Shown here one piece after another: positions 1,012 through 50,822 of a DNA stretch of 64,000 nt. Where the stretch lies: NCBI RefSeq assembly GCF_040183065.1, contig NC_091132.1:163358102-163422101 (forward strand), in the 5' to 3' direction. The DNA comes from Periplaneta americana. Taxonomy: Eukaryota; Arthropoda; Insecta; Blattodea; Blattidae. Position 1 is the stretch's first letter, and every line of letters begins with the position of its first letter. The notes under the pieces were generated by a model that had not been told where the DNA came from, did not search any database, and saw only the letters and a list, made by a program, of their open reading frames with translations. Position numbers and translations under genes: made by a program.

Positions 1012-1821
1012 CTCCACCTCCCTTTTTTTTTTTTTGTATGTATGTATGTATTTATTTACACTGCAAGTGGGCAAGCACCCGGTGGCAGTGGTATATACAA
1101 TATTAACAATACACAGTTAAAATGATAAGCAATACACAATAAAATTTACAATACATAATAAAATTTACAACACATATACAATTTTATACACAATACAATA
1201 AGAATACACAATACAATTTAACACAATAATAATAAAACATAAAATAAAACACCTAATTTTACAACACAACCTACATGATTATGTATAGGTCCTACATAAT
1301 TTTCAATAGTCTTTCACTTTACTCTCATCTCATTCCCTGTAGTGGCACTATGACGCATTTCACTGACACTCTGTAACACATTTCGCTGACACTATAGAAC
1401 ACATTTCATTGACGCTATAAATTATCACTGATCGGAACTGTTCACTGCACTGTAAAACCATAACTTCACTGACTCACCTCGCTTCACTGATACAACAGTT
1501 CAAATAAGTCAAATAATTGCATTCTTATGCATACTGTACTTATAAACAGAACTACATTTAAACTAAACATTTCTAGTCTAAGGCCCTCTTACACGCTATT
1601 TTTAAATAATTTACAATTCAAACCAAGGAAGTAAACTCGTCAGGCTAGATAAATACATGCCACCTTAAAAAATTAAATGTTGAATGTACCTTAATTTTCA
1701 TGATGGGAAAGTCAATTGGCACAGGAGATTTATCATGTGATATCTCTGATTTCAGACCATAGCTGTGATCCATACATTCCGTCTTTATTTCAGTCAAGTG
1801 CTGATCTAATACATTTTCTTC
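1012..1821 (-). pseudogene. Acidic cassette exon of Z1, interrupted by a retro-insertion
   Basis: The minus strand starts after a TTTTGCAG acceptor at 1822 with EENVLDQHLTEIKTECMDHS and continues to PIDFPIMK at about 1694. The expected end, REVE followed by a GTGAGT donor, is still present at 1006-1018. About 670 bp of poly(A)-tailed DNA lies between, which breaks what was a 138-bp phase 0-0 exon like those at 5627, 9827, 34146 and 37350. Splicing to the old donor would include the insertion and shift or stop the frame. The exon is probably dead or skipped; because it is symmetric, skipping would keep the frame. Confidence 0.8.
1026..1693 (-). mobile_element. Poly(A)-tailed retrotransposed fragment inside a Z1 exon
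   Basis: On the minus strand this ends in AAATAAATACATACATAC followed by a run of about 13 A at 1022-1035. It abuts exon sequence on both sides. No long reading frame is visible, and it looks like the 3' end of a 5'-truncated non-LTR element or other retrocopy. The target duplication cannot be resolved because the target has an A-run (AAAA) that merges with the tail. The source family was not identified. Confidence 0.65.
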
Positions 1822-5626: not shown

Positions 5627-5764
5627 CTCTGCCTCGCTTTTAATGATGGGAAAATGAATTGGCACAGGAGATTCCTCACATATCATCTCTGATTTCCGAT
5701 CATAGCTGTGATCCATACATTCCGTCTTTATGTCAGTCATGTGCAGATCTAATACATTTTCTAT
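5627..5764 (-). CDS. Acidic cassette exon of zinc-finger gene Z1
   Basis: A 138-bp exon with both boundaries in phase 0. The acceptor is AATTCGCAG at 5765 upward and the donor is GTAAGT at 5626 downward. It encodes 46 residues beginning IENVLDLHMTDIKTECMDHS and ending HFPIIKSEAE. The usual first Glu is Ile. Cassettes of this kind form the non-finger leader of cockroach-type C2H2 proteins; their role is unknown and may be protein interaction or regulation. Neighbouring cassettes are at 7902-8024 upstream and 1012-1821 downstream. The splice consensus and frame preservation among copies support a real exon. Confidence 0.78.
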
Positions 5765-7901: not shown

Positions 7902-8024
7902 CTCCACCTCCCTTTTCATGATGGGAAAGTCAATTGGCACAGGAGAGTCATCATGTGATATCTCTGATTTCAGACCACAGCTGTGATCCATACTTTCCGT
8001 CTTTATTTCAGCCTCATTTTCTTC
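7902..8024 (-). CDS. Shortened acidic cassette exon of Z1
   Basis: A 123-bp phase 0-0 exon encoding 41 residues, EENEAEIKTESMDHSCGLKS and on to FPIMKREVE. The acceptor is ATTTTGCAG and the donor GTGAGT. Compared with its 138-bp siblings it lacks five codons net: VLDLHMT is replaced by EA just before EIKTE, so the frame is kept. This in-frame loss, with intact splice sites and no stop, suggests a functional constraint. It lies between cassettes 9827-9964 and 5627-5764 of the same gene. Confidence 0.8.
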
Positions 8025-9826: not shown

Positions 9827-9964
9827 CTCGACTTCACTTTTGACGAAGGAAATGTCAATTGGCATATAAGTTTTATCAAATGTCATCTCAGACTTTACAT
9901 CAGTGCTATGGTCCATACATCCTGTCTTTATTCCAGTCACTTGCAGATCTAATATTTTTCCTTC
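9827..9964 (-). CDS. First acidic cassette exon of Z1
   Basis: A 138-bp exon in phase 0-0, acceptor GTGTTACAG, donor GTGAGT. It encodes EGKILDLQVTGIKTGCMDHS, then TDVKSEMTFDKTYMPIDISFVKSEVE. It is most like 37350-37487 of Z2, which occupies the equivalent position right after the start exon. Negatively charged residues dominate. It should be joined to the start exon 12282-12373 (also phase 0). No domain of known structure is recognised. Confidence 0.83.
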
Positions 9965-12281: not shown

Positions 12282-12373
12282 CTCAAGTTTCTCCTCTTCT
12301 ATATCTGTGTTATTACTTCCTTCTAATGCTAGAGTGTCGATCTCACGTCCCATCTTGATTGCGTCCATCATGG
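12282..12373 (-). CDS. Start exon of zinc-finger gene Z1
   Basis: The minus strand has a pyrimidine-rich acceptor (CTTCTTTTTCAG) followed by CC and ATGATGGAC. It codes for MMDAIKMGREIDTLALEGSN and on to EEEKLE (30 codons), then a GTACCT donor in phase 0. The second ATG (12368) corresponds to the start of Z2 at 37727, so either could be used. An acceptor upstream of the ATG implies at least one 5' non-coding exon, perhaps near 13518-13720. The MDxIKM...DIEE start is the usual one for this family of C2H2 proteins. The rest of the gene runs left through 9827-9964, 7902-8024 and 5627-5764, and the fingers should lie before position 1. Confidence 0.85.
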
Positions 12374-17520: not shown

Positions 17521-18188
17521 TAATTTTTGTTTAAATTACAATTACCTCCAGCCCAGGGCCGTTTCTCCCAAAGTTATCAATGCCTAAAGGGATTCTTTAA
17601 AATACTTGTGCCTAAAAACATTAAGTATTCGCTTTGGGCACTGCTACTCATTTTACCCACAGCCAAAGAAAGAGCAATATTAAATGTAGAATTTCCATTC
17701 AGTACGAAATCAATACATTAACTTGATCTTTCATGACATAAATACAGTATCTATTACACATAGCATAAATAACAAATTTAACGTTAATATTTACATTTTA
17801 GTCCGTATTATTCTGAGGTTACAAAGTGCAGAAGTCATTGCTTGCATTGTATGAGTCCAGTTCTTGGTTATTTGGTTCTTTACATCTCCGACTTCACAAC
17901 TGTAATTCTGGGACGTGTGGAGAATGTACAGAACGCTATGTTAACATCAGTAACTACTTAACAAATATTTATGGAAAGAACTAGTCTTATTAACAATTAA
18001 AAGAAAAATTAACGCGAGAAAAAACATTACAGTAACAGCAAGCAGAGTTGAATCAACATTTCCAAAGAAAATTTGACTTTACCACAAGGCCATTAAATAA
18101 ATCTGTAAACAGATAACTGATTTCACAGAGAAGAATCACATGAAATTGGGGTAGTAGATTTTACAATCACCACAGCTGAATATCTCAC
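17521..18188. repeat. Segmental duplicate, non-coding (matches 55215-55830)
   Basis: Aligns with 55215-55830, sharing GGGACGTGTGGAGAATGTACAG-like and CCCAGGGCCGTTT landmarks. No gene. It may be the 3' flank of the finger block at 18189-18728. Confidence 0.5.
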
Positions 18189-18728
18189 GTGGCTACGAGC
18201 GCATCCTCTTTTAGACTACCAGATTCTGAAAAGATCTTTTCATTCATATCACAACTGAATGCCTTATCTCCGTGTGTGTACGAGAGCATGCCTTTTCAGA
18301 GTACCAGATTGAGAAAATTCCTTTCCACATATATCACAACTGAACGCCTTCTCCCCAGTTTGTACGATTGTATGCTTTTTCAGAGTACTAGATTGCGAAA
18401 ATTTCTTTCCACAAATATCAGAACTGAATGCCTTCTCCCCTGTATGTACGACTGAATGTCTTTTTTAGACCACCAGATTCCGAAAATTACTTTTCACATA
18501 AATGTCACAAATAAATGCCCCTGTGTGTACGAGTCTATGCTTTTTTAGATACATGGCTTGGGAAAATTTCTTTCCACATATATCACAACTGAATGCCTTC
18601 TCCTTTGTATGTAACAGTGCATGCCTCTTTAGATTACAAGAGTGGGTAAACTGAATTGGGTCCTTGAAGTAATTGGTTTGCAAGTGGACTTCACAAAATT
18701 CTGTTGTTTTTTTGTGTTTGTGGGACAA
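18189..18728 (-). pseudogene. Decayed C2H2 zinc-finger block
   Basis: On the minus strand, finger units such as CDICGKKFSQAMYLKKHRLVH are clear at 18490-18660. Further fingers continue to about 18190 but in another frame after a 1-bp insertion near 18465 (GGT GGT CTA read as a stop). Near the end the frame is lost again. The upstream part (FCEVHLQTNYFKDP) has no standard finger. About 5-6 finger units remain, none forming a long frame. It is read as a third, dead terminal exon of the cluster, downstream of 20212-21973. Confidence 0.85.
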
Positions 18729-20211: not shown

Positions 20212-21973
20212 TCAACCTAAATCACAAGTAAATCCCTTCTCCACTGTGTGTATGAGTGCATGCCTTTTCAGATTACCAGAGAGCGAAAATTTCCTTCCAC
20301 AAGTATTACAACTGAATGCCTTCTCACCAGTGTGTACGAGTGTATGCTTTTTTAGAGTACTAGAATCCAAAAATTTCCTTCCACATATATCACACCTGAA
20401 TGACTTCTCTCCTGTGTGTACGTGAGTATGCTGGTTAAGAGTACTAGAACTCGAAAATTTCCTTTCACAATTATTACAACCGAATGGGTTTTGCCCTGTA
20501 TGTACGCGTTTATGCATCTTTAAATTACTAGAAAGCGAAAATTTCTTGCCACATGTATCACAACTGAATGCCTTCTCCCCTGTGTGTACGAGTGTATGTC
20601 TTTTCAGAGAACCAGCGAGCGAAAATTTCTTTCCACATATGTCACAACTGAATGCCTTCTCCCCAGTGTGTACGAGTGTATGCCTTTCTAGAGTATTAGA
20701 ATCCACATATTTCCTTCCACATATACTACAACTGAATGACTTCTCCGCTGTGTGTACGAGTGTATGCTTCTTTAAATTACTGGCAAGGGAAAATTTCTTT
20801 CCACATATATCACAACTAAAGGGCTTCTCGCCGGAATGTACTGACGCATGATTTTTCAGGGTGTAAGGCTTCGAAAACTTCTTTTCACATATATCACAAC
20901 TGAAAGGTTTTTCGCCTGTATGTAAAATTACATGCTTTTTTAGATTACCAGATTCTGAAAATTTCCTTCCACATACATCACAACTGAATGCTTTCTCCCC
21001 TGTATGTAAGATGATATGCCTTTTTAGATTACCAAATTCCGAAAATTTTTTTCCACATATGTCACAAATGAATCCCTTCTGCCCTGTATGTACGGCTGCA
21101 TGCCTTTTCAGTGTACTAGAAAACGAAAACTTTTTTCCACATATATCACAGATGAATGCCTTCTGCCCTGTATGTACGAATACATGCCTTTTCAGTGTAC
21201 AAGAGAGCGAAAATTTTTTTCCACATATATCACAACTGAACGCCTTCTCCCCTGTGTGTATGTGGGCATGTTGCTTTAGAGTAATAGAACCCGAAAATTT
21301 CTTTCCGCATATGTCACAAGTGAATCCTTTGTCATGTAAGATGACATGCTTTTTTAGATTACCAGATTCCGAAAACCTCTTTCCACATATGTCACAACTG
21401 AATGCCTTCTGCCCTGTATGTAAGACTGCATGCCTTTTCATTGTACTAGAGAGTGCAAATTTCTTTCCACATATATCACAACTGAATGCCTTCTGCCCAG
21501 TATGTACGACTGCATGCCTCTTAAGTGTACTAGAGAGCGCAAATTTCTTTCCACAAACATCACAACCGAATGCCTTTTCCCCTGTATGTACGAGTGCATG
21601 TTGCTTCAGAGAACTAGAACTCGAAAATTTCTTTCCACATAAATCACAACAAAATGCCTTCACCTCTGTCTGTAGGGATGCATGCTTTTTTAGACTACCA
21701 GATTCCGAAATTTTCGTTCCACATAAACCAGGACCGAATGACATCTCGTCTTTGTGTACGCGTGCGTGTTTTTTGAGGTGATGCAAGTGCAAACAATCCT
21801 TTCCACAAACATCGCAAATAAACCGTTTCTTGCTTTTGTGTAGAACACCGTGGCTTTTTAACCTTGTAGAATCGAAAAAACACTTTCCACAAATATCACA
21901 GTTAAATGGCTTTTCATCTGTCACCAGGCAGGGATCATCTGTATTGGTGTCGCAGGAAGATGGAACTCCAGTG
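20212..21973 (-). CDS. Large C2H2 zinc-finger terminal exon (finger exon B)
   Basis: The acceptor ATTTTCTTCACAG leads into C ACT GGA GTT CCA, the same sequence and phase as finger exon A (28563). The exon encodes about 586 residues: a short linker GVPSSCDTNTDDPCLV, then 20 C2H2 units with TGEKAFSCDICGKKFS-type linkers. Unit 3 is degenerate (first Cys and last His replaced), and the end is truncated at CDLG by a small deletion relative to exon A. Recognition helices are unusually uniform (for example LSGNLKR, LSSTLKR, ESGNLKK). The product would be a nuclear DNA-binding protein. No 5' exons lie between this exon and finger exon A, so it is either an alternative last exon of gene Z2 (predicted about 735 aa) or an orphan duplicate. 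Confidence 0.88.
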
Positions 21974-27476: not shown

Positions 27477-28563
27477 TTATGAACAAAAGAAAGGCATCCC
27501 ACAATTATCGTGAGTTAAGTTCTCCCTTGTGTCTACGAGATGCTGTTGTAGACTACCAGATTCCGAAAATATCTCTCGATCCAAGTCACAAGTAAATGCC
27601 TTCTCCACTGTATGTAGGAGTGCATGTCTCTTCAGATTACCAAGGAGCGAAAATTTCTTTCCACAAATATTACAAATGAATGCCTTCTCCCCCGTGTGTA
27701 CGAGTGCGTGCTTCTTTAAAATACTAGTTCGCCAAAATTTCTTTCCACATATATCACAACTGACAGCCTTCTCCCCTGTGTGTAAAAGTGCATGCTGCTT
27801 TAGAGTACTAGAATCCGAAAATTTCCTTCCACATATATCACAGCCGAAAGGCTTCTCCCCTGTGTGTACGCGTGTATGTTTTTTCAAATTACTAGAAAGC
27901 GCAAATTTCTTTCCACATATATCACAACTGAATGCCTTCTGCCCTGTGTGTACGAGGATATGTCTTTTCAGACTACCAGGTAGCGAAAACTTCTTTTCAC
28001 ATATATAACAACTGAATGCCTTCTCCCCTGTGTGTACGAGTGTATGCTTTTTTAGAGTACTAGAATCCAAAAATTTCCTTCCACATATATCACAACTGAA
28101 TGACTTCTCCCCTGTGTGTACGAGTGTATGCTTTCTTAAATTACAGGTACGCGAGAATTTCTTTCCACATATATCACAACTGAAAGGCTTCTCGCCTGAA
28201 TGTACTCTGGCATGATTTTTCAGTGTATAAGAGTTCAAAAATATCTTTCCACATACATCACAACTGAATGATTTTTTACCTGTGATACGTATAGTTTCCG
28301 AAAATTTCTTTTTACACATATCAGAACTGAATGACTTGTCTCTGTGTACGCAAGCGTCTCTTTTGAGAACATCCACCTGCAAACAATAATTTCCACAAAC
28401 ATCGGACACCAACGGTCCCTTCGGTTCGTGTAGAACAGAATGTCTTTCGAGTTCTATCGTATCGAAAAAACACTTCCCACAAACATCACATTTGAATGTC
28501 TTCTCACGTGTTACCAGGCATTCATCTTCTGTAATAGTGTCGCTGGATGGTGGAACTCCAATG
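27477..28563 (-). CDS. Zinc-finger terminal exon of gene Z2 (finger exon A)
   Basis: The acceptor CATTTTCTTCACAG is followed by C ATT GGA GTT CCA. With the GG left by the 83-bp exon it continues the frame as GIGVPPSSDT. It codes for 361 residues and a stop. There are about 12 finger units: nine look intact (first CDVCGKCFFDTIELERHSVLH, then eight in a row from CDVCGKIFLNSYTLKNHARVH). Units 2 and 3 and the last (CDLDREIFSESGSLQQH) have lost ligands. Linkers are HTGEKAFSCDICGKKF. The protein is a probable nuclear DNA-binding factor. The order of fingers resembles a subset of exon B, so one array arose from the other by unequal exchange. Confidence 0.92.
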
Positions 28564-28955
28564 CTGTGAAGAAAATGTGGTCTTAGGTCGAACAAGAAGA
28601 CTAGAGAAGAATAAATCACCAAAAGACAACTACATCCAACACAAATATATTATACTCAGTCAGTAAATAAGTGAAAGTATGCGTCTATATATGACTTAAG
28701 TCTCATATGTGCATCTGAATGATATGAAGATGTAAATGCTAGCAAGATGAGTCCAGAGTCCAGCACTCCAATGAATGGGTTGATAGGAAAACTACGGAAA
28801 ATAACTCAACCTCACAGAACTGCTATTTCAGTAAACATGTATTTCGATTAATAGAATTTACGCAGATATCTCCATGGCATGGCACGTCCTCAGGTTGTAA
28901 ATAAAGGAGACAGCATACAGTTATAGAAGGTAGCTGTGAACATATTAAGCTGATA
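28564..28955. other. Z2 intron 4, part
   Basis: Non-coding sequence upstream of the finger exon acceptor. Only short low-similarity pieces of repeats seen. Confidence 0.35.
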
Positions 28956-29180
28956 AGGGGTGGTTCTCCAGCTAGGGGGTTAGGCGAAGGACTAACATCC
29001 CTTCACCGTAAAAAAAACAGCTTGTTACGAATCCCTACAATAAGCTTCGGAATGGGACTGATTCTCTGGCACGAACACAGCAAAGGAATAAGGTTATGAG
29101 ATTTGGCACTTGGAACGTAACTAGTCCTTATAGAACAAAAGGGGCAACATTAGTAGCAAAAGATCTAGCTAAATATAGAA
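28956..29180 (+). pseudogene. 5' end of an RTE-like LINE (endonuclease start)
   Basis: At 29096 the frame MRFGTWNVTSPYRTKGATLV corresponds to the start of an AP-type endonuclease (GTWNVRTLY motif) of the same kind of LINE as 22136 and 30286. The stretch before it resembles the LINE 5'UTR. It stops after about 25 residues at unrelated DNA, so only a fragment is present. Confidence 0.6.
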
Positions 29181-29517
29181 TATATATCAGCCATTGCGAC
29201 ACATGCCCCTGTCTCCACTCAAGCGTAACCATGGCATCATACCCCCACCGTCTGTTTACAGCCTTCTCTTCGATATAAGATTAGACATTTATCAGCAGCA
29301 GACGTACACAAGTATGTAGGATAAAATGTTTCGATGTCTTTTCCAAAACAGAAAATTTAATATTTATAGGAGGATGGGAGCAAAAGTATTTCTTTTTGTG
29401 TGCAGACAAAAATATGAGATAGTTAATTTGTTGTAAAATGTTAAATGAAGCATAAAAGAACAATGTATGTTGCCATTATTCTTCTTCATATAAAGACTAC
29501 CACGTCCTAACCTGTAA

Positions 29518-29710
29518 ATCGAATATTTTGTTAATAAACGAACAATAAAAAGTTTCGGCTTCTATGTCTTAATCGGAGTAACATATTTCGACGTTTTTTT
29601 CGACGTATGCAACATAATTAGAATATTTAATTAATAAACAAATAATAAAAAGTAATGGCTTCTATGTCTTAATCGGGATGAAACACTTTGACTTTTTTCT
29701 TAAGTAGTGT
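29518..29710. repeat. Imperfect tandem pair of about 112 bp
   Basis: GGCTTCTATGTCTTAATCGG occurs twice (about 29555 and 29659) with matching flanks TTAATAAACRAAYAATAAAAAG and CGACGTTTTT-like. It lies in intron 4 of Z2 with no gene nearby. Confidence 0.7.
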
Positions 29711-30049
29711 AGTTTACAATTTTGTGACCAGCCTGGTACGTTTTTCTAATTTCAAACATCTGGTGATGTAAAGTACACGTTCTTTTTATGGTAAATAAGA
29801 AAACATATTTTATTTTATTAATAATACAAAAATAATGAATAGGAGGATAAAAGGTAATACGGAAAAAAAGTGTGTGTAGTGAATAAGTAAAAGAATATTA
29901 CATTGCTTTTGTTTTTTGGTCACAGTCCGTCTCAGCACTGTTTTTCACTGCATTACCTGAGGAGATACCCACTCCACCCCTCTCCCTGCGATAGTGGTGT
30001 GCGGGTTGCATTTCTATTACGTCACAATTTCGTGATGAATGGCAACCAC

Positions 30050-30102
<53 letters not shown>

Positions 30103-30285
30103 AGGTAAGATGGGAATGGCATATCACAAATAGGAGACTACTATTATGAGGAAGGAAAAAATAATCACCAACTAAGAACAGGAATCTTTATTAGAGAAAA
30201 TCAGCAGTAAAAAAGGTCGAAATTATCAGTGACAGGTCATCACTTAGAGTACTTAAGGGTAAATGGAGCGATATCGTAGTTATAA
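29711..30285. repeat. Intron 4 sequence with (TA)n microsatellite
   Basis: 30052-30099 is a pure TA dinucleotide run of 24 units. No other feature seen. Confidence 0.85.
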
Positions 30286-31090
30286 ATGCTCACGCATTAT
30301 GACGTGATTATGTTTGCAAAAAATCCAAAAATGATTAGTGAAAACACGGAAATTTTACTTGAAGCAAGTAAAGCGATAGATTTGAAAGTAAATCCCGAAA
30401 AGACGAAGTATATGGTTATGTTTCGTGAGCAGAATATTGTACGAAATGGAAATATAAAAATCGGAGATTTATCCTTCGAAGACGTGGAAAAATTCAACAG
30501 TAACAAATATAAATGACACTTGGGAGAAAATTAAACGCAGAATAAATATGGAAAATGCCTGTTATTATTCATTTCAGAAGCTTTTGTCATCTATTCTGTT
30601 GTCAAAAAATCTGAAAGTTAGAATTTATAAAAACAGTTATGTTACCGGTTGTTCTGAAAGTTGGACTCTCACTTTGAGAGAGGAACAGAGATTAAGGATA
30701 TTTGAGAATAAGGTTCTTAAGAAAATATTTGGGGCTAAGAGGGATGAAGTTAGAGGAGAATGGAGAAAGTCACACAATGCAGAACTGCACGCATTGTATT
30801 CTTCACCTGACTTAATTAGGAATATTAAATCCAGACGTTTGAGATGGGCAGGGTATGAAGGACGTATGGGCGAATCCAGATACGCATATAGAGTGTTAGT
30901 TGGGAGACCAGGTGAAAATGGACCTTTGGGTAGGCCCAGACGTAGATGGGTTGTTAATGTTAAAATGGATTTGAGGGAGGTGGGATATGATGATAGAGAG
31001 TGGATTAATCTTGCACAGGATAGCGACTGATAGCGGGGCTTATGTGAGGGCGGCAATGAACCTGCGTGTTTCTTAAAAGCCATCTGTAAG
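30286..31090 (+). pseudogene. RTE-like LINE, 3' part
   Basis: The frame at 30286-30516 (AKNPKMISENTEILLEASKA) follows a lost YVDD box. 30548-31030 carries ENACYYSFQKLLSS, ESWTLTLREEQRLR, RRLRWAGYEGRMGES and RPRRRWVVNVKMDLREVGYD, the conserved C-terminus of this LINE family. It ends in CTGTAAGTAAG. It is 5' truncated, with a frame change near 30505. Confidence 0.85.
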
Positions 31091-31648
31091 TAAGAATTTA
31101 CGCAGCTGCTTTTCTTGTGTGGAATTCTCCATGACAGTTTCATCTTCACTGTCCTGTATGACAATCACTGAGAAATAGCTTACAAGTTGCACCTGCTCCA
31201 GGAACTGAATCGTTATATAAGGATGTAAAATAATGAAAACTTCAAGTTAAGATATGGGGGATGACATTATTGTCATCCACTTCTAAGGTTTGGACACTGG
31301 AAATGGAAAAATGAGAACAAATCGGTTACAAAGAAGTTCATATGGATGGGTAGAGGGAAGGATGGATACATAGACAGACCATCACACGAAAGTATAAATG
31401 GACGAATAGATTCACAGACAAAAAACGATACAGAGAAACAGATAAGGAGAGGCAGACATACAGACAGACAAACACAAAGAAAGACATACAGACAGATTTA
31501 CGGGTGAACATGGCAATTCAGGATAATGAGTCCTTCATTTGAACAACAATCATGTTGAAACTAATCAGTAATTCCTATTCTTCGTCAGTATTGTTTAAAT
31601 AAAGCAATGAAACCAACAACCAAGTAAAGGCCCACACACTTCACTCAC
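31091..31648. other. Z2 intron 4 near exon 4, with ACAG-rich low-complexity tract
   Basis: 31370-31510 is rich in CAGACAGACATACAGACAGA-like repeats. Otherwise featureless. Confidence 0.45.
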
Positions 31649-31731
31649 CCTTCAGTAAATACTTCATTCTCTTCTGCCGTTTCTTGTAGTTCGGCCTCCT
31701 TATCCTCTTTAATTATGTCACATGCCTCGTC
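31649..31731 (-). CDS. Small acidic exon 4 of zinc-finger gene Z2
   Basis: An 83-bp exon with acceptor CTTTTGCAG and donor GTGAGT. It codes for DEACDIIKEDKEAELQETAE and then ENEVFTEG, the last Gly codon being completed by the first base of the finger exon. It enters in phase 0 from the cassette at 34146 and leaves with two bases, matching the acceptors of both finger exons A and B. It is strongly acidic and helical-looking. It is too short for routine gene finding; the frame fit across four junctions is the evidence. Confidence 0.85.
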
Positions 31732-32134
31732 CTGCAAAAGAGTACGTGAAGAAAGGCTATAGAAAAATAATAGTCTCAAGATTCAATGGATGGTAGCTTA
31801 AATGCAGCAGACTAGATTTTAAATCATACTTTATCCAGTCAACAATTCAAACATTATTGGTGTAGAATGAAAATGAATTTAACAAACACAAAAACAAAAT
31901 ATTATGTCATTTTGTGAGCAATGTCCCGTTTTAAGTAACAATTACGAAAACTATGTCAATTGGCAGAGTAAATAAGAAAATCACTAGAATCATATTCTGA
32001 GATGGTCATGTGAGAGTAGGATTCAGGAAGACCTAGTTGATAAATGATGAAATTATTACGGTAAAATTGGTGATGGACATTTTTGGTAAGGTAGTTTGAA
32101 ACTATTTCAGATATCTGTGGATCTATAACAACCA
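31732..32134. other. Z2 intron 3, unique part
   Basis: AT-rich; nothing recognised. Confidence 0.35.
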
Positions 32135-32141
32135 CACGACT

Positions 32142-32744
32142 TAAGAGGGAGCAACAGTAACGAGTATAAATAAGAGTTGGGAGGAAATTAAACACAGAAT
32201 AAATATGGGAAATGCCTGTTATTATTCGGCTGAGAAGCTTTTATCATCCAGTCTGCTGTCAAAAAATCTGCAAGTTAGAATTTATAAAAACAGTTATAAT
32301 ACCAGTCGTTCTGTATTGTTGTGAAACTTGTACTCTCACTTTGAGAGAGGAACATAGGTTAAGTGTGTTTGAAAATAAGGTGCTTAAGAAAATATTTGGT
32401 GCTAAGAGGGGTGAAGTTACAGGAGAATGGAGAAAGTTACACAAAACAGAACTGCACGCATTGTATTCTTTACCCGACATAATTAGGAACATTAAATCCA
32501 GACGTTTGAGATGGGCAGGGCATGTAGCACGTATGGGCGAATCCAGAAATGTATAGTGTTAATTGGGAGGCTGGAGGGAAAAAGACCTTTGGGGAGGCCG
32601 AGACGTAGATGGAAAGATAATATTAAAATGGATTTGAGGAAGGTGGGATATGATGGTAGAGACTGGATAGGGACCAATGGCAGGCTTAAGTGAGCATGGC
32701 AATGAACCTCCAGGTTCATTAAAAGCAAGTAACTAAGTAAGTAT
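32142..32744 (+). pseudogene. RTE-like LINE, short 3' copy
   Basis: GNACYYS..KLLSSSLLSKN, TCTLTLREEHRLSVFENKVL, RRLRWAGHVARMGESRN and RPRRRWKDNIKMDLRKVGYD in two frames. The tail is AAGTAACTAAGTAAGTAT. A partly matching ACGACTTAA / ACGACTAAA pair flanks it (32135; 32745), a likely target duplication. Frameshift near 32290. Confidence 0.82.
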
Positions 32745-32752
32745 ACGACTAA

Positions 32753-34145
32753 ACTAAATGAACGAAGGTTAGTAAAAATCCAACACGATTTCAAAATGGA
32801 GGAAAAGTAATTTGGACAGTGTAAACAACAATAGAAGAAATTACCTCACTTGTGAATATTCAAGGAGATATTTCGACCTATTATTATGTTTATTTACTTC
32901 ACTTACGGCCTTCATCTGTTTATTTTTCCAGAGTCCAGTTCCAAGTTACTGTTCCCAATTCTTTCTATTTGTTTAAGGCGGCAGTCTGAACTCGATGAAA
33001 TGATTAAATGGTCCTCCCCATGTAACAGTGTCAAGTTGCTTCTGGAGAGTGGAAGGAAATGGCAAAGGAACTCTGAAGCATATGTTGGATATTGCTCTTA
33101 CATCTGCCAATTGTGTAAGCTCCGGCAAAATCGCTGCGATACGTAATTGTGATTTTGTCAAAGTGTGATTTTTGTGTTCAGATGATTCTTGGCGATTGCG
33201 GGGAGCAAACCACCCCTATCTGTGGATTTCTAAGTCGTCTAGAAGTCAATATCACTGTAATCAACTTACCTCTGAATAAATCAAGAGGAGTAATCAACTT
33301 TTCATGAGCAGAAAGATGTATACGCTTATCACTCTTCTGGAAATTGAATTGATGTGCCAGTGTCATGCTTTATATGAACACAGTGATAAGCACGGCGTGC
33401 AAACTGAAGAAAAAAACTGTCCTGAACTATCATTGCGGTATGTGGGCATGTATATTCGTTCAAGAACATTTCCGAATGATGAAGGGAATCAAACATGGAA
33501 GAATATGGCGTCTGCATAACTGCACTGACACCTAATTACCGACACTAACCTTTTGAGTTGTACCAATATTAATTAGATCTCAGCTATGTTGACCTTCAAC
33601 ATATGTTGGAGATGTAATTTAGGAACTGTAGTCACAGTAGAATCCAGTGACAAACTTATCACACAGACAAATTCACAAATCTTCAAAGCACAGCCCAAAA
33701 ATACTCTGAAGTAATTGAGAAATGTGATGTTCATGCATATCTACCAGCTACTTACGTCACAAGAAATAGGCGTCAATGATGTGGATTTCAACTATCAAAA
33801 GAATGTGGAAAGAAAAATAAAAAGAAACCTAATTAACTGTACTCTCTACACCAACCAAAAAGAAAGTTTACTCTGCAACCACCAAGTCACTCTATACTGG
33901 TCTGTCAATTAAACTAGAAGTGGTTAATGTAAGAATTATCAATAGTGATTAAAAAATTCGAAACAGATATGATTTAGTAAATGTTCAGTATCAATCTGTG
34001 GAAAAAATTCACGAATGACTACAGGACAAAGAATTGACAGAGGAGAGCTAAAATCTTTTCCTTGGTGACGTACATTTAGCAGTCACATCAGCCAGTACGT
34101 AACAGATAGAGAAATACCGATCCACACATCATAAATTGCACTCAC
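32753..34145. repeat. Z2 intron 3 with block A copy
   Basis: 33216-34140 matches block A (1-1005, 6880-7895). 32753-33215 is related to 6660-6880 only at its end. No gene. Confidence 0.55.
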
Positions 34146-34283
34146 CTCAACCTCGTTTTTCATGATGGAGAAGTCAACTGGTACAGGAGATTCCTCAAAT
34201 GTCATCTCTGCTTTCAGATCATAGCTGTGATCCATACATTCCGTCTTTATTTCAGACATGTGCAGTTTTAATACATTTTCTTC
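34146..34283 (-). CDS. Second acidic cassette exon of Z2
   Basis: 138 bp, phase 0-0, acceptor GTTTTACAG, donor GTGAGT. It codes for EENVLKLHMSEIKTECMDHS, then YDLKAEMTFEESPVPVDFSIMKNEVE. It sits between cassette 37350-37487 and exon 31649-31731 and joins both in frame. The 46-residue unit is the repeated leader module of this protein family. Confidence 0.88.
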
Positions 34284-35225
34284 CTGTAAAACATACAAAA
34301 TAATTATTATGTAATAAAACATAAGTCTGTCACAAAGAACCTTTCACTGGTTTTATAACGTGTCCACTCTATTAATAATGCTGATGTCAAGGATTTCACG
34401 TCTACCAACTCCAGTGTCAGTAGTGAAATAATTTGTATCAAGAGTCGGAAGGATCCAATGAAGAGTCGCCGTTGTCTAATCAATAAGTTGGATGGCGTAA
34501 GAGGCTTATATGACGTCACGTATATCATCACATTACTTTGCAAGTAGGAAAAAATTGTTTTTATAAAATCTTGGTAATTTAACTTAGCTGAAAGTTTACG
34601 TAAAGATTAAATATTAATTGTTACCTGAAAGTTGTTGTTTCGTGTTGGTGTAGATTCTGAATGTTAAAGATGTATGTCCATAAGGTAGCTATGTTTTTTA
34701 ATGTTGTTTATAAAGTCGAAAAAAACATTTGATGAGCTTGTGTTCTTCCATATGCAGTCTAGGAATGGCGGTATAGGAACTCAAATATACAGTAAATAGA
34801 TCGTCGGTTTTTAGTGTTTTATCTGGTAACCTAATAATCCTTGTTAAATGCTTCAATTCACAATACTTTCGTTATCTGTGTCGATGGTTTACATAATTCG
34901 CAAAAGTTAAAGTTCTTTCGTGATGCACTAGCCATCCTAGGATTACTAGAATATTAATGTCTTTAGTTTAAAGGGATTAGTGTAGTTAATCGATCTAATA
35001 TACGTAAATAAGACAATTGATAGTAGATAAGTGGAGTAACACGATCTATTGGATATATATCATATTAGCTTACTGGCTAATATGTAATTTACTTGCTAAG
35101 TTAATATAATTAGGTTAATAGTAAACTTATGAATTCAATTGAGTTACATAATAATGAACTGATATATTTAATGCCTCTGGAAGTATTTCACGTTATTTGT
35201 ATCTGAGTATAATATTTAAACGTTT
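34284..35225. repeat. Z2 intron 2, block D
   Basis: Matches 1822-2341 plus 3918-4290 and 8025-8880. The stretch at about 34855 is another empty site for the LINE at 2350. No gene. Confidence 0.6.
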
Positions 35226-35237
35226 GTTCTTCAACGA

Positions 35238-36374
35238 GATAGGTTTGGAAGTAAATCCCGAAAAGACTAAGTATATGACTATGTCTCGTGACCAGAATAT
35301 TGTACGAAATTGAACTATAAAAACTGGAGATTTATCCTTCGAAGAGGTGGAAAAATTCAAACATCTTCGAGCAACAGTAACAAATATAAATGACACTTGG
35401 GAGGAAATTAAACGCAGAATAAATATGGGAAATGCCTGCTATTATTCGGTTGAGAAGCTTTTGTCATCTAGTCTGCTGTCAAAAATTCTGAAAGTTAGAA
35501 TTTATAAAACAGTCATATTACATGTTGTTCTGTAAGGCTGTGAAACTTGGACTCTCACTTTGAGAGAGGAACAGGGATTAAGGGTGTTTGAGAATAAGGT
35601 TCTTAGGAAAATATTTCAGGCTAAGAGGGATGAAGTTACAGGAGAATGGAGAGAGTTACACAAGGCAGAGCTGCGCGCATTGTATTCTTCACCTGACATA
35701 ATTCATCATCATCATCATCATTATTGGCGCCACAGCCCTTGGTGGGCCTGGGCCTCCCTTAGTAATTGTCGCCATCCATCTCTATCTTGTGTAGCAGCCT
35801 TCCAATTCTTGCACCCCAACTTTCTGGCATCCTCTTCCACTCCATCAATCCACCGCAAGTGCGGTCGACCTCGTCTTCTCTGACCTCCGGGATTTGTTAT
35901 TACAATTTTTTTGCAAGGTTCACTTGGGTCCATGCGTATTACATGTCCTGCCCACCTCAACCTGCTAGTTTTAACTATATTGATTATATTTGGCTCTCCT
36001 AGAAGTCTATATAATTCATAGTTGCATCTCCTCCTCCGGAGACCTTCCTCAAATGTTGGAACATAGATCCTTCGCAGAATACCTGACATAATTAGGAACA
36101 TTAAATCCAGACGTTTGAGATGGGCTGGACATGTAGCACGTATCGGCGAATCCAGAAATGCATAGTGTTTTAGTTGGGAGGCCGGATGGAAATAGACCTT
36201 TGGGGAGACCGAGATGTAGATGGGAAGATAATATTAAAATGGATTTGAGGGGGGGGGGTGGCATATGATGGTAGGGACTGGATCAATCTTGCTCAGGATA
36301 GGGACCAATGGCGGGCTTATGTGAGGGCGGTAATGAACCTCGGGTTCCTTAAAAGCCAGTCAGTAAGTAAGTAA
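35238..36374 (+). mobile_element. RTE-like LINE copy with nested second LINE
   Basis: A 5'-truncated copy starting in the thumb region (VNPEKTKYMTMSRDQNIV) and ending with the GRPRRR-type region, a short AAAAGCCAGTCAG end and a (GTAA)n tail. It is flanked by a perfect 12-bp duplication GTTCTTCAACGA at 35226-35237 and 36375-36386. Paralogous empty sites are at about 4470, 8889 and 13098. The open frames at 35347-35883 and elsewhere are interrupted by stops (for example TAA at 35535) and by the nested insertion. Confidence 0.93.
35704..36080 (-). mobile_element. Second LINE fragment nested in the first
   Basis: The minus strand encodes EEGLRRRRCNYELYRLLGEP, TSRLRWAGHVIRMDPSEPCK, RRRGRPHLRWIDGVEEDARK and KNWKAATQDRDGWRQLLREA, the C-terminus of a related but different LINE, with an ATG-repeat tail (ATCATCATCATCATCATTAT on plus at 35705). 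A perfect 13-bp duplication ACCTGACATAATT lies at 35691-35703 and 36081-36093. It splits the host LINE codons ...SSPDII / RNIKSRR. Confidence 0.95.
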
Positions 36375-36386
36375 GTTCTTCAACGA

Positions 36387-37349
36387 ATTCGTAGCGTTAA
36401 TGACTATAATGGTGGTTCAATGAACGAAGAGTTCTAGAATCTAATCTCGCGTTATTCAAAGATAAGTGATGTATTCCAATTTCAGAAGAAGCAGTTTTTT
36501 AGAATAAAGTAAGTAGACGGTCAAATACAGAAAAATATTTGAGGAAGTGTGAACAGTGAAATAGCATAGGGTGAAAGAAAAATAAGTGGGGGTAGTGAGG
36601 GTTTTGGGGGCGTGAGTCCTCCATTTCATTCATTTTTTCAAGTATTATCATCGTGCGTGACGTCACATATTGCGTCATCGATCTCCAATTCGTCTGGAAG
36701 AGCTGCGACTGAATCTTGGATTTTACCGAAAAGCATCGTCTAGATTAATTTTAGTGTTCAAAAATCTCTCCGTTGGTTTATAGAAGGGTTCAGCGTGAAG
36801 ACACGATTAATTCTTCCTCTCCATGTAAGTCAGTGTGAGGAAACTATGTATTGCAGAACGGAGGTGGATGAAGAAAGGATCTCTAAAGCATTCTTTGTTT
36901 TATGAACTTATTGCGTAATTATAAACAAATGGTACGAAGAAATTGGCATCAAATATGTGAAGTTTGGCAAATAAACAATTTAAAAAGAAACATTGAAAAG
37001 AAAAAATAAAAATACAATTCAGATTATTTTCTAAACCAGGTGCAAAGTACAACTTTAGTCAACTACTATTGGAGTAACTCAGAGTGGCCCACATTCCGTA
37101 CTGGACTGTCAATTAAATGAAAGGAAGCATGGTAAAAATAAAATCAGTGGGGATCAAATCATCAACATGTATATCATTTTGTATGCGTTAAGCATAGCAG
37201 TTTTTGTGATAAAACATGGGCGGAAAAGAATCACGAAATATGTAGGATGTTGAAATGGACAGCATGAAAGCATCAATCATATCCCCTGGTCACCTGAATG
37301 TAGCAGCCACATCAGGCAATTAAGAAAAAACGTCATAAACTGCACTCAC
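36387..37349. repeat. Z2 intron 2, block C
   Basis: Matches 4470-5620 and 8885-9820. It begins with the tRNA-like stretch. No gene. Confidence 0.6.
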
Positions 37350-37487
37350 CTCGACTTCATTTTTGACGAAGGAAAGGTCAATTGGCACATGAGTTTTATC
37401 AAATGTCATCTCAGATTTTACATCACTGCTGTGGTCAATACATTCTGTCTTTATTCCAGTCACTTGCAGATATGATACATTTCCCTC
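37350..37487 (-). CDS. First acidic cassette exon of Z2
   Basis: 138 bp, phase 0-0. Acceptor TGTGTTGCAG, donor GTGAGT. It codes for EGNVSYLQVTGIKTECIDHS, then SDVKSEMTFDKTHVPIDLSFVKNEVE. The intron separating it from the start exon is only about 150 bp (37488-37640), against about 2.3 kb in Z1, where the CACAGTC element and other DNA lie. Confidence 0.9.
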
Positions 37488-37640
37488 CTGCAACACACAA
37501 ATCATAGTAATTATACAATGATCTCTCGCACCCAGTCATAGTAGGATGTATTTTTTACGCCCACATGATAAGCTAAGTTGTTATAAACGACGAATTTAGA
37601 AAATAAATAGCACGTAGTAGTCACTCTCAATATGGCATAC

Positions 37641-37732
37641 CTGGAGTTTCTGCTCTTCTATATCTGTGTTAATCTTTCTTTCTAATGGTAGAGGGTCGGT
37701 CTCACATTGCATCTTGATTACGTCCATCACGG
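37641..37732 (-). CDS. Start exon of zinc-finger gene Z2
   Basis: The acceptor has a long pyrimidine run (TTTTCTTTTCTTTTTCAG), then CCGTG and ATGGACGTAATCAAGATG. The coding part 37641-37727 is 29 codons, MDVIKMQCETDPLPLERKIN and then TDIEEQKLQ, with a GTATGC donor in phase 0. Start choice: this ATG is conserved with Z1 and there is a non-coding 5-bp leader after the acceptor. With the four exons downstream it gives a 1533-bp coding sequence, 510 aa, without an internal stop by my joining. The upstream 5' exon may be that near 50014. Confidence 0.88.
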
Positions 37733-38080: not shown

Positions 38081-39333
38081 TTCTAATGCCAGGTGTTTGA
38101 CAATAAAGTCATTTGACCTCTTGCACTCCAATATTTTTCAAAGATATTATCATGGTCAGCCACTGAAGCACAGATTTTGAGGTGTCCCGAATCCATTTCT
38201 TGGTTTGAGTTGCACGCCGGGCAGTTAGGGGACTGATATATTCCAATTCTATGCAGGTGTTTGGCCAAACAATCATGGCCTGTTGCCAATCTAAATGCAG
38301 CTACAGACGATTTTCGTGGTAAATCGGGAATTAACTGTGGTTTATGATGGCGGGAGTTCCATCTTTTCCCTTGAGATTGTGTTATCAAATTTTGTTTGCT
38401 GAAGTCTAAGTATGTAGATTTAATAAATCTTTTCACAGAGTAATATGTAGATTTAGTAACAGGTCTGTAAGTAGCAGTGCTGCCCTTCTTTGCTAAAGTA
38501 TCCGCATTCTCGTTTCCCAGGATTCCACAATGGGATGGTATCCATTGGAATACAATTCTTTTATTGAGGGATATTAATTGAGAGAGCATTTTAGTTATTT
38601 CTGCTGTTTGAGATGAAGGTGTGTGTTTAGAGACTATTGATAGAATAGCTGCTTTGGAGTCTGACAATATAACCGCATTCTTAAATTTATTGATGTGGCA
38701 GAGAAGATTCCTGAGACTTTCACTTTTTGCAGTGATTTCTCCATCAAAACTTGTTATTCCATACCCAAGAGATCTATAAAGTGAGATGAGACAGCACGTA
38801 ACACCTGCACCGACACCTTGTTCTCTGGAGATCAAGGATCCGTCAGTATATAAATGAAGCCAGTTTTGTGGAGGGTACCTAATATTAATTGTCTCTAAAG
38901 ACAATTGTTTCATTATTTCAGTGTTTACTTCTGATTTCAGTATTTCTTCTGTTAAATTTAGATTATATTCTATATTTAATATAGTTAAAGGGTTTGGTTT
39001 AATTTGTAAGTTTTCTTTTAAATTCGGGATATTGATTTTCTGTTTTAATTCTTGAAGAATGGATATGAAACTTTTTTGAGTTTTCAATATACAGAGAGGA
39101 CTGTATGCATCCCAATTGTTTCCTTGTAATCTGATAAGTTTTTTAAATTGAATCAGTGCTTTTTCTTCTATTGTCATTTTGATGCTGTTAATATTAGTGA
39201 GGAATCTCATAGAATCTATTGGAGTTGTTTTGATTCCACCAGTAATGAGCAAGTCAATGTTTATAGAGCCAGTTCTGACATACTGCGGAGAAATTTTAAT
39301 TACTTCACCTTTCATAATCGAAATAGAATATGT

Positions 39334-43254: not shown

Positions 43255-44909
43255 CTCATGAGTAGGGCTAGGATTTTGATGAAATTGCATAATTTTTTCT
43301 AGTAAGCCAGAACACAGCTGTTTTAGTATTTATATGTTATGTGATAACCTGAGTGTTTTAAAACATATTTGTTAGGGCATTTTTTGCCTGTTTCAACTCA
43401 TAAGAGCAACTTTTATTTTACTTGGTCATTTTTTAGTCATTTTCGTTTAATTTTGGCCATAAATCCTTATTATTAATGTACAACGACACACAGATTAATT
43501 AATATACCAATGAACAATGACAACTACACTGAAGAATTAAACACAATAAAATATATAGCGCAAGACAATGGACACAACCCTAACATAATAGACACACTAA
43601 TAAAAATGGCAAAACAAAAACAGAACAAACCAACACAAACAGCACGCGAGAATAAATACATAACATTAACATATCACAATACCAATACCCACAAAATTGC
43701 AACTTCATTCAGAAAACTAAAGTACAAAATTGCATACAAAACAAATAATACAACACAGAAATACTTAAATAACCACACTAAACATTCAAATAAGTATAAT
43801 TCAACTGGAGTTAACAAATTAAAATTTAATAGTTGCCCACATTTTTACATAGGACAGACAGGAAGATCCTTTCATACAAGATATAATGAACATATTAAAT
43901 CTATAACCAAACCTTACATCACATCAAATTATTCAGATCACATTATCAACAATAATCATGACTACAATAATATAGAAACAGATATGGAAATTTTACACTT
44001 CACACCAAAAAGTTCACAGTTAAACATCCTAGAACAGTACGAAATATATAAGAATACAATAGCATACCCACAATATATACTTAACACACAACTACAGTTC
44101 GATACACACACATTATTTGACGTCATAATACATCATGACATGCAAACAGCCAACCCCCACCATAGGAGCAACACACCCCCACCCCTACCATCGACAAATG
44201 CACATCACAGAGTCAAGATCACCAGTGGCTCAAGAGACACTGAAGACGACGACACATAGCGTCGAAATGGGCCGTCTGTCGAAGGTAAATACCTTTTTTT
44301 TAACAATTTTAACACTTTTAACGTATGACAAAGTAAATTTTATGTAAAATAATGTTTATTTCCTTTGATATTTTCCTTACATATTTTATCCATTAATATC
44401 CATTATTTTGTATCATATTTTAATTGTTTTTCTACACAAATATTGCCATTTTAATGCAGTACACCCTCACATAATGGATCAGTCCAACCACCCCTTCAAT
44501 ATAGACTCCTCTATACCTGCTAATTCGGGATAAGAGTGTTCTTGTGGTAGACTACATGGAAACTAAACGTAAAGTAAATCCATGGTGCTACAGCCCATGA
44601 AGGGCCAAGACTGACCATCCGACTGGTGACCTCACGTCCACATGCCTACGCAGAGGTGAACGATCATACATGGAAATTACATCAGGTAAAATAATTAATT
44701 CAAGTGTACTACTTACAAAAAATTATGTAAAATTTAATTTAATTACTAGTCTAAATATTAAGCAGTAGAAAACTTCATTTTCTACTAAGCCAATTATGTA
44801 AGATTAATTTTTAGGGCATTTTTGAAAGATTTTTAGGTCATAAATGCATTGTTTTTTAGGACTTTTTTTCATGATTTATAGGTCATCAAAATCCTAGCGC
44901 TACTCATGA
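43255..44909. mobile_element. TIR-bearing insertion containing a Penelope fragment
   Basis: The ends CTCATGAGTAGGGCTAGGAT (43255) and CATCAAAATCCTAGCGCTAC followed by TCATGAG (44909) are inverted copies, about 27 bp, with outer CATG possibly a target duplication. Subterminal TTAGGGCATTTTT / TTTAGGGCATTTTT repeats sit on both sides. It interrupts the DUF7869-like gene. The superfamily is not assigned. A repeat-like stretch around 44575-44672 was not identified. Confidence 0.65.
43510..44259 (+). pseudogene. Penelope-like element 3' part, GIY-YIG endonuclease
   Basis: An open frame of 249 residues with FNSCPHFYIGQTGRSFHTRY (GIY-YIG core with catalytic Tyr and Arg at about residues 112-128), SDHIINNNHDYNNIETDMEI, and LNILEQYEIYK with the metal-binding Glu. 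After the stop comes GACACATAGCGTCGAAATGG, typical for the 3' end of Penelope elements. The reverse transcriptase is absent, so this is a 5'-truncated copy. The frame itself is still intact. Confidence 0.87.
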
Positions 44910-49425: not shown

Positions 49426-49879
49426 GGTCGATGTTAACATGCAATCGAAAATTCTAAAACAAACAGCAACTTGAGTGGCATTAGAAAAAAAAAACAAAGG
49501 TAAGTATGTGTCAAGAATCACAACCTAATTATGCTGGATGTCCGATCAAAGATTATCGTTTTTGAAAACTCGACTATTTAAATTAATGTGAAAGGTTGGT
49601 GGATTGCACATAATTTCATTATACTTTGCTTCATGGTTGAAAAACTGAACTGAGCATTCTTGCAGGTGTTCACGAATCGTTGGTAAATTCTGTCTCAAAA
49701 TAAAATGTACCATATCAAAGATTCGTTGCAAATAATAAAAAAAAAATGCGTTGTAAAGAGACATTCTGGATGGCATAAAATTTATGTTTCTAACCCAAAA
49801 TTTCGAGACACACTACATGGAGCACAGTGACACACTGGTTGGGAACCACTGTTATATTGGTCTGTAAAAACAGCGACTG
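49426..49879. other. Spacer inserted in the duplicated region
   Basis: No gene recognised; not matched in the 13 kb copy. Confidence 0.3.
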
Positions 49880-50110
49880 AATCTTAGATATTACCAAAAT
49901 TAAATATCAATCCAATACTTAGGCCTACCAGTACTTGATTCTCAAATTTGTCGTTGAACACTTCATAGGAACTCGTATTTGCGATAATCTTCAATGAAGC
50001 TATTCGCACTTACCGCCATTTTCAGTTTCAAAGGTCCAATATTACCAAAGAAAAGAATTTTCAGTTTATTCACATTCACCTAAAATTACCTTCTCGCTAC
50101 AAGCTACTCT
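49880..50110 (-). promoter_or_regulatory. Putative 5' untranslated exon region of Z2
   Basis: Copy of 13441-13735. The minus strand ends AAAATGGCG followed by a GTAAGT donor (exon end at 50014). It lies about 12 kb upstream of the Z2 start exon, the gap being filled by insertions. A transcribed leader exon is inferred from conservation and splice consensus. Confidence 0.45.
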
Positions 50111-50814
50111 TGAACGAATTACGCACAAGATACCTACCGACAATGGGTAGCTTTCAATAGCCGTATGCGCTCTCAATTTTACTGGAAAAAAGCATGCACA
50201 ACTGAATGTGTTTCGTTCACTCTTGAATTCGTTATTTGAATGCTTAAAGGAGAAGGAAATCTGAACAGTGTAGAGCATATTTACAGTGTTTACCACAAAA
50301 AGCAGGAGAATTGAAGACTTAAGTTGTACGAGAAACATTAACCCCCCCAACATGATATATGTTGTACTAGCAATTCAAAGATAATGCAGAACAATAGTGA
50401 GTATAGCATAAAAGTTCCAAATGTAAATAAGTTTTCATGTTGTTCAATTTACATACGAGTATATATTGAGCACACGTATACCAATAAGGAAAGATGAATG
50501 AATTCCCATGCAGGTACAAAAATGTTTGGGTGCTGTTTACTCCAAAAGTTGAAGCTTGTTTCGCTCGAACTCCATTTGTGAAGATCAGATCATATAAATT
50601 ACACTTACATACAATATACCAAATTTAACAATATACTTACCTGTATGAAACATAAATTAACGTAGTTTTATCCCTTCTTCAGGTGTCAGGCTCCATAGTT
50701 GCAACGTCATTATTTTTAACTACATGTTCAAGATGTAGTGATCAAAGAAGCCCTGCCAGAAGCAGTGTCAAAAAAACCTTAACTTAAATTTGCAACACAA
50801 CTGAGATTTCTCCC
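50111..50814. repeat. Segmental duplicate, non-coding (matches 14580-15130)
   Basis: Matches through AACATGATATATGTTGTACT and TTCGCTCGAACTCCATTTG. No gene. Confidence 0.55.
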
Positions 50815-50822
50815 ACAACCTA

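Follow-up and report, generated by a model that had tools for sequence, protein, structure and literature searches.

A cockroach zinc-finger gene with a multi-exon leader rich in candidate SUMO-consensus sites is one member of a large tandem family

A zinc-finger gene of Periplaneta americana, spread over five coding exons of which several are small, raises the question of what its N-terminal leader is and what it might do. The window analysed was a 64,000-nt stretch of contig NC_091132.1. In it, the original prediction had placed a single, complete five-exon gene on the minus strand (gene A), with small hidden exons and a leader of repeated acidic cassettes.

We examined gene A exon by exon, and every coding exon lay where it had been predicted. 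Coding exon 1 (37641..37732) comprises 5 nt of 5'UTR and the ATG at 37727, and begins MDVIKMQ. It is followed by cassette 1 (37350..37487; IKTE, VKSE, VKNE) and cassette 2 (34146..34283; IKTE, LKAE, MKNE), both of 138 nt or 46 codons, by acidic exon 4 (31649..31731; 83 nt, IKED, phase 2 donor), and by the terminal finger exon (27477..28563), which encodes nine strict C2H2 fingers plus degenerate ones and ends with TAA. All four introns were GT-AG, with phases 0, 0, 0 and 2, giving a product of 510 aa plus the stop. The proposed 'EIKTE' cassette was exact in exon 3, but exon 2 reads GIKTE. When the window was scanned for open stretches of 138 nt bounded by AG and GT, the minus strand gave 62 and the plus strand 66; when a strong donor (G/GTRAGT), YAG and a pyrimidine tract were added, four and none remained, respectively. 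All four were the cassette: gene A's two and those at 9964 and 5764.

The gene was complete in its coding exons 1-5 only. Exon 1 starts directly 3' of a polypyrimidine tract and CAG/CCGTG-ATG, and a YAG lay within the 15 nt upstream of the start in all 20 distant exon-1 copies hand-picked from 150 scored. Because a conserved 3' splice site starts exon 1, one or more upstream noncoding exons are implied that the gene A model lacks. A conserved block lies upstream of the tandem exon 1s (in gene A at ~49.9-50.9 kb); no shared donor was seen in these blocks, so we make no first-exon claim for it, and the first noncoding exon was not located.

The exon order and phases of gene A were found again in its tandem neighbours, which independently supports the model; together with the exon check, these copies bore out the hidden exons and the repeated cassette. 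Within 264 kb around gene A, one strand carries a tandem array of ten leaders that share one arrangement, in which exon 1 precedes one to five cassette copies, and these a short acidic exon and the fingers. One of them, paralogue C, is partly contained in the window (minus strand). The window includes its exon 1 (12282..12368), cassette 1 (9827..9964) and cassette 3 (5627..5764); cassette 2 (7902..8024) has a 15-nt in-frame deletion, cassette 4 (1690..1821) has a poly(A)-tailed insertion near its 3' end, and the remainder, from cassette 5 through exon 4 to the fingers, falls outside the window to its left. This partial five-cassette leader was absent from the original prediction, as were a second finger exon downstream of gene A and the presence of up to three ψ-K-x-E sites per cassette. 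The finger exon of gene F was omitted from the finger-exon and intron-flank comparisons because the acceptor search gave no match of the required form there.

We then considered the whole genome. The best 150 of 1478 candidate cassette matches were scored, and all were stop-free (E ≤ 1.3e-9). Of the best 150 of 298 exon-1 candidates, 149 had no stop at E ≤ 10, as did 25 of 25 exon-4 matches at the same threshold. For 35 of the 150 scored exon-1 matches, a scored cassette followed downstream at no more than 15 kb on that strand; for 5 one lay upstream, and for none on the opposite strand. From the best 150 of each kind we hand-picked 20 exon 1s and 20 cassettes at distant places, the cassettes among near end-to-end alignments; the cassettes are not 20 independent samples, because L041 and L042 encode the same protein sequence and L056 and L057 nearly so. 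All 20 of these picked cassettes kept 46 codons, the frame and both AG/GT ends. Similarity alone proves little here, because the segment has been duplicated in its entirety and its introns contain fragments of repeats; this would suit a view in which coding is confined to the finger exon and the small exons are remains of repeats or stretches left open by chance. The kept lengths, frames and splice sites and the stop-free scored matches speak against that view, which is refuted as far as sequence can do so and which we regard as exceedingly improbable. The single-gene picture gave way: gene A is, from its sequence, a polydactyl C2H2 zinc-finger gene of a very large, tandemly duplicated family. 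The predicted gene is modular, with exon 1, one to five cassettes of ~46 codons and a short acidic exon spliceable in frame to a single finger-array exon.

To what extent is the leader constrained? Substitutions numbered 84/612 in exons and 736/3991 in introns, with 1 (in-frame) and 53 indels, respectively, a comparison that is not independent because cassette A2 enters it three times. No stop was observed in the cassettes, against rough expectations of 7.8 for the 21 local ones and 10.8 for a 24-sequence set. For the latter set, omega = 1 was disfavoured (lnL -1459.4 vs -1464.5, p = 0.0014) in iqtree tests based on likelihoods alone. Among close local paralogues omega = 1 was not rejected (cassette 1, p = 0.43; cassette 2, 0.37; exon 1, 0.94; exon 4, 0.18; all cassettes, 0.07); these sets held 8 of 10 exon 1 copies, the stop-bearing and frameshifted ones having been dropped, and 7 of 9 exon 4 copies, two of other length having been dropped. 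The stop counts of exon 1 (P = 0.10) and exon 4 (P = 0.18) were uninformative, and the NG86 ratio exceeded 1 in several second-type cassette pairs. Neutral evolution of the leader among close paralogues thus stays compatible with the data. This would also be expected if gene A were itself decaying within a birth-and-death array, as might the loss of its exon-1 IKxE site, the degenerate fingers within its array, and the insertion, frameshifted exon 1 and exon-1 stop of neighbours C, D and F. However, all five exons of gene A are open and every splice site is intact, and fingers A and B differ at non-contact positions with a pN/pS of 0.41 (biased low, the fingers having been chosen by their Cys/His pattern). 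We consider decay of gene A improbable.

Domain searches indicated that the fingers, but not the leader, belong to known families. The fingers matched PF00096 and PF13465; arrays A and B, with 9 and 19 strict fingers, both show the tandem C-x2-C-x12-H-x3-H pattern of polydactyl C2H2 proteins with linkers of the TGEKP type (mostly TGEK). The leader matched no Pfam family at E ≤ 0.1, and at a threshold of 10 only DUF5996 (E = 0.16). As predicted, it had no Pfam match to KRAB, ZAD, BTB or SCAN, so that Pfam does not place gene A among the KRAB-ZNF, ZAD-ZNF, BTB-ZNF or SCAN-ZNF genes. PDB matches were at chance level (E = 0.5 and 0.71) and were rejected, as were two weak NCBIfam matches (best, asparagine synthetase A, E = 0.0022, 17.6 bits vs a cut-off of 322). 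Rfam had no match in the window. No relatives were confirmed in viral contigs (two-cassette peptide, cassette alignment and finger array B) or in bacterial and archaeal genome contigs (two-cassette peptide); these searches are uninformative about insects because the collections are viral, bacterial and archaeal. Five leader sequence strings did not occur in the literature text searched, and the papers listed for zinc-finger expansions in cockroaches or other insects, or for SUMO in connection with zinc fingers, described no such leader in their titles or the starts of their abstracts.

The leader is, however, distinguished by SUMO-consensus (ψ-K-x-E/D) sites. The gene A leader contains six ψ-K-x-E sites vs 0.69 in shuffles, of which 3 in 100000 reached that number, while the nine finger exons of the array contain none, and nine ψ-K-x-D in all. 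We found 50 ψ-K-x-E/D sites in the 21 local cassettes vs 5.78 in shuffles (maximum 16 of 5000), and 57 in the 20 distant cassettes vs 5.57 (maximum 15 of 5000), with E rather than D in 55 of the 57. In cassettes, the motif ran forward 117 times and reversed 8 times; in the 45-sequence cassette set four local cassettes were entered twice, leaving 41 distinct places. All 20 distant exon 1s that were picked had an IKxE-type site. With consensus sites above chance, the leader has the sequence pattern of a putative SUMO substrate. Points against a SUMO-acceptor leader include the short and permissive nature of ψ-K-x-E, the absence of site 2 from 6 of the 21 local cassettes, and the loss of the exon-1 site in gene A, which reads IKMQ. 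An AF2 model of the leader showed no fold (pLDDT 61), and predicted disorder is weakly supported.

An acidic leader might instead serve as an activation or cofactor-docking domain, with K-x-E arising from another linear motif and without SUMO modification. Its net charge of -26 over 148 residues and the conservation of non-lysine columns (D18 and P35 in 21/21 local cassettes; E1, N3 and C16 at ≥85% in the 24 sequences) would agree with this. Against it, no aromatic column other than F29 reaches ≥85% conservation in the 24 sequences, three K columns hold 60 of the 81 lysines of the 21 local cassettes, and pN/pS was 0.22 at the ψ/K/E columns vs 0.69 at other columns, although this contrast was modest (1479 of 100000 permutations). 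We judge an activation or docking domain unlikely.

Downstream of gene A, we found finger exon B (20212..21973, minus strand), which has 19 strict C2H2 fingers without an internal stop, the TTCACAG acceptor and phase 2 of finger exon A, and 588 codons including the stop; further on lies a decayed finger relic (18171..18650, minus strand) with frameshifts and stops. No leader exon was found between 27477 and 21973, and the 9.7 kb from exon 4 to B is near the other distances between exon 4 and fingers, which span 0.9 to 8.3 kb in eight genes. The 3' flanks of finger exons A and B are 84% alike over 140 nt. One leader with two alternative last exons, in which 31731-31649 is spliced to fingers A (28563) or B (21973), is possible but doubtful; it would yield two proteins differing in target specificity and is compatible with a SUMO-acceptor leader. 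Such an arrangement would be an exception, because the other eight exon-4-bearing leaders in the 264 kb have one main finger array each, some with decayed extras. Exon B could also be the headless remnant of a gene that no longer has its leader, and its intron flank is barely closer to that of A (83.9%, 93 nt) than to that of G2 (83.5%, 85 nt).

On balance, we favour the explanation that gene A belongs to a KRAB-like repressor family whose DNA-binding protein would itself bear a SUMO docking array. The fingers would recognise a target site in DNA, while the leader, acidic and probably disordered, would act as a multi-site SUMO acceptor, each cassette offering up to three ψ-K-x-E sites. Attached SUMO could then bring SIM-bearing co-repressors and enzymes of H3K9 methylation to that site, with the SUMO platform forming part of the DNA-binding protein rather than being supplied by KAP-1. 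Cassette number would set the SUMO dosage, and finger change would set the target. By analogy, transposable elements would be the most likely targets. Contrary cases are reported in two papers: dipterans without a TE-ZNF correlation and Drosophila ZNFs without TE enrichment (PMC10547256), and Hemiptera in which repeats and the ZF271-like expansion are uncorrelated (PMC6444547). More tentatively, one insect lineage may have assembled hundreds of zinc-finger genes into a KRAB-like silencing force, in which duplicated or lost SUMO cassettes tune repression, swapped or duplicated finger exons change targets, and the KAP-1 step is unneeded.

The leader sites may suggest how insects, which reportedly lack the vertebrate KRAB/KAP-1 system, could silence DNA via zinc fingers. 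According to the milkweed-bug genome paper, insects have large lineage-specific zinc-finger expansions, reportedly without a direct KAP-1 orthologue, and alternative partners are explicitly called for (PMC6444547). The SUMO-consensus columns are among the leader's most constrained, which makes the SUMO pathway a concrete candidate partner. ORF-based surveys would count the family by its finger exon only.

Several known systems resemble this family in part. ZAD zinc-finger genes are likewise a large finger family of insects whose proteins carry a module at the N-terminus. The ZAD is a Cys-based zinc-binding fold with two Cys pairs, whereas the gene A leader has four isolated Cys, no CxxC and no Pfam ZAD match. 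KRAB zinc-finger genes, as described in PMC10547256, share the layout of one or more leader exons ahead of a finger array contained in one exon, as well as large tandem clusters, and their route ends in SUMO-dependent SETDB1 recruitment, according to PMC7915335; the gene A leader differs in having no KRAB match. The FiNZ genes of cyprinid fish (Wells et al., 2023; PMC10547256), described in a paper whose main text contains none of 'SUMO', 'insect' and 'cockroach', are similar in their short Glu-rich N-terminal module without similarity to a known domain, encoded by an exon upstream of the finger-array exon; in zebrafish, hundreds of them cluster on one chromosome arm rich in TEs. They are set apart by description: the FiNZ module is 28 aa in a single exon, whereas the leader here has three exon kinds and a 46-aa cassette in one to five local copies. 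The ZF271-like (APEZ) expansions of Hemiptera are also lineage-specific insect C2H2 genes, partly tandem and with many fingers; PMC6444547 reports no domain in them beyond the finger arrays, whereas the cockroach family has a conserved leader of separate small exons.

The original prediction placed a complete zinc-finger gene, gene A, on the minus strand (37732–27477). Its five-exon model was confirmed, with 510 residues, GT-AG ends at all introns and phases 0, 0, 0 and 2. The word complete had to be dropped: a YAG lay within 15 nt 5' of the aligned start in 20/20 hand-picked distant exon 1s, indicating that the gene has a further exon upstream of exon 1. The leader ahead of the finger exon comprises exon 1, cassette exons of 138 nt and a short acidic exon 4. 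A scan of both strands of the window found 62 open 138-nt AG..GT stretches on the minus strand and 66 on the plus strand. When a strong donor, a YAG and a pyrimidine tract were added, 4 remained on the minus strand and 0 on the plus strand, and all four were leader cassettes. Gene A is a real gene model, and it belongs to a large family.

Using tblastn, we located the leader of a paralogue, gene C: its exon 1 lies at 12368, followed by cassettes at 9964, 8024, 5764 and 1821, and the gene continues past the left window edge. A poly(A)-tailed insertion of ~0.65 kb (about 1027–1694) interrupts the fourth of these cassettes (C4) close to its end. Large intron blocks were also duplicated between genes A and C (~75–82% alike), so similarity by itself is no proof of coding. 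Substituted sites numbered 84/612 in the leader exons versus 736/3991 in the introns (Fisher p 0.0045), and indels 1 (15 nt, in frame) versus 53 (p 0.0075); both p values are optimistic because cassette A2 was counted three times.

The 264 kb around the window contained 10 leaders, all on one strand; their cassette counts were 1, 2, 2, 5, 2, 2, 2, 2, 2 and ≥1. All 21 local cassettes were open with an AG acceptor, and 20 had their own GT donor, the exception being C4. A finger array followed each of the nine leaders with an exon 4. The nine finger exons with a recognised acceptor (those of eight leaders plus finger exon B, with that of the tandem neighbour F omitted) were open in phase 2. Decay was seen in the exon 1s of three neighbours: a stop in F, a frameshift past the ATG in D and a GC donor in E. 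A conserved block lies 5' of many array exon 1s (in the window at about 49877–50927, ~12 kb from the gene A ATG); no shared donor was seen in it across the array.

Other elements in the window were a Tc1/mariner-type transposase (16373–17482, plus strand) split over two frames, with Pfam searched on the first part; two LINE-type ORF pieces, at 2840–3898 (plus strand, RNase H matched by Pfam) and 38083–39333 (minus strand); an ORF piece at 43477–44259 (plus strand), presumably GIY-YIG/Penelope from its look, with no Pfam match; and a MADF domain gene fragment (59858–60373, minus strand; Pfam E 7e-9).

We then searched the genome (3.23 Gb, 91 contigs; the window is C16:163358102-163422101). The best 150 of 1478 cassette candidates all had E<=1.3e-9 and none contained a stop, and 149 of the best 150 of 298 exon-1 candidates, at a permissive E<=10, were stop-free; both sets are biased toward good copies. 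The exon-4 search gave 25 matches at E<=10, all stop-free. With a 15-kb limit, 35 of the 150 scored exon 1s (best of 298) had a scored cassette downstream on their own strand, 5 had one upstream and 0 had one on the opposite strand. Twenty distant cassettes, hand-picked on contigs C9, C12, C16 and C17, were all 46 codons long with AG and GT ends. The 20 distant exon 1s had the ATG at the aligned position in 19 cases and no stop in the first 27 codons. By chance, roughly 7.8 and 10.8 stops were expected in the 21 local cassettes and in a set of 24 cassette sequences, and none was found; the absence of stops in local exons 1 and 4 was not improbable (P 0.10 and 0.18, with the stop-bearing exon 1 excluded).

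A GT stood at offset 93 in all 20 distant exon 1s (L059–L078), preceded by GAG in 18; local exon 1s (window 37641, 12282) were mostly 87 nt, with CAG before the GT, a 6-nt subfamily difference that preserved phase 0. Most scored leader matches and many finger matches fell in chromosome-scale clusters at C16:150-183 Mb, C17:0-16 Mb, C12:34-37 Mb and C9:5-6.5 Mb. Several finger matches were paired at equal score between C16:180.3-180.9 Mb and C17:0.2-0.6 Mb, which looks like recent duplication or duplicated assembly. Two cassettes (L041 and L042; C16:157.05 and 160.29 Mb) were identical in protein.

The leader matched no Pfam family. As far as we searched the open-licence literature, by title and start of abstract, no description of it was found, and within that literature it appears undescribed. 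AlphaFold analysis of one cassette with 6 rows gave a pLDDT of 61 and a single short helix, weakly consistent with a disordered leader. Psi-K-x-E is the SUMO acceptor consensus. The gene A leader contained 6 such motifs versus 0.69 in self-shuffles (3/100000 as high). The nine array finger exons contained none; most had one psi-K-x-D, and that of gene A had two. The 21 local cassettes carried 50 psi-K-x-E/D motifs versus a shuffle mean of 5.78 (max 16, 5000 shuffles), and the 20 distant cassettes 57 versus 5.57 (max 15, 5000 shuffles), 55 of them with E. The three sites were retained in 19/21, 15/21 and 16/20 local and in 19/20, 20/20 and 17/20 distant cassettes. The forward motif occurred 117 times and the reversed motif 8 times. 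An additional exon-1 site was present in 20/20 distant and 7/10 local copies and lost in gene A. An extended form of the consensus is given in the accessible text of PMC7915335.

Pooled pN/pS at the nine psi/K/E columns was 0.22 versus 0.69 at other columns in 24 sequences (20 distant, 4 local), and 0.32 versus 0.81 in the 21 local cassettes. Equally low variation occurred in 1479/100000 random nine-column sets and, for the K columns, in 797/100000 random three-column sets. Psi-K-x-E is a leading conserved feature of the leader. In the local array, omega=1 was not rejected for any leader exon set, and in several close cassette pairs nonsynonymous change per site exceeded synonymous change; in the broader set, however, omega=1 was disfavoured (lnL -1459.4 free vs -1464.5 fixed, p 0.0014). 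Thus, the leader evolves rapidly locally, with constraint seen mainly over longer times.

Finger exon B (21973–20212, minus strand) encodes 19 strict fingers and shares the acceptor and phase of the gene A finger exon; the stretch separating it from gene A yielded no leader exon. There are two readings: gene A uses the A fingers and the B fingers as alternative last exons, or exon B is a remnant that lacks a leader of its own. Helix position -1 was the most variable (entropy 2.75) among the strict A and B fingers. Their pN/pS was 0.79 at contacts versus 0.41 at other positions, the latter biased low because strict fingers were selected by their Cys/His pattern.

The exon structure, the family and the enrichment and constraint of the motif are observed; beyond these, we propose that SUMO may be attached to the leader, that this SUMO would recruit co-repressors, and that silencing would follow at bound sites. 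The targets might be transposons; however, the accessible text of PMC10547256 reports no transposon link for the finger genes of dipterans or of Drosophila, and that of PMC6444547 no link between finger expansion and repeat content in Hemiptera. According to the same portion of PMC6444547, the expanded hemipteran finger families have no other domain, and a direct KAP-1 orthologue is reportedly absent from insects. In vertebrates, as described in the accessible text of PMC7915335, KRAB zinc-finger proteins recruit KAP-1, which, once auto-SUMOylated, brings SETDB1 via SUMO-SIM contacts; in the gene A family, the SUMO platform would instead be built into the zinc-finger proteins' own leader.
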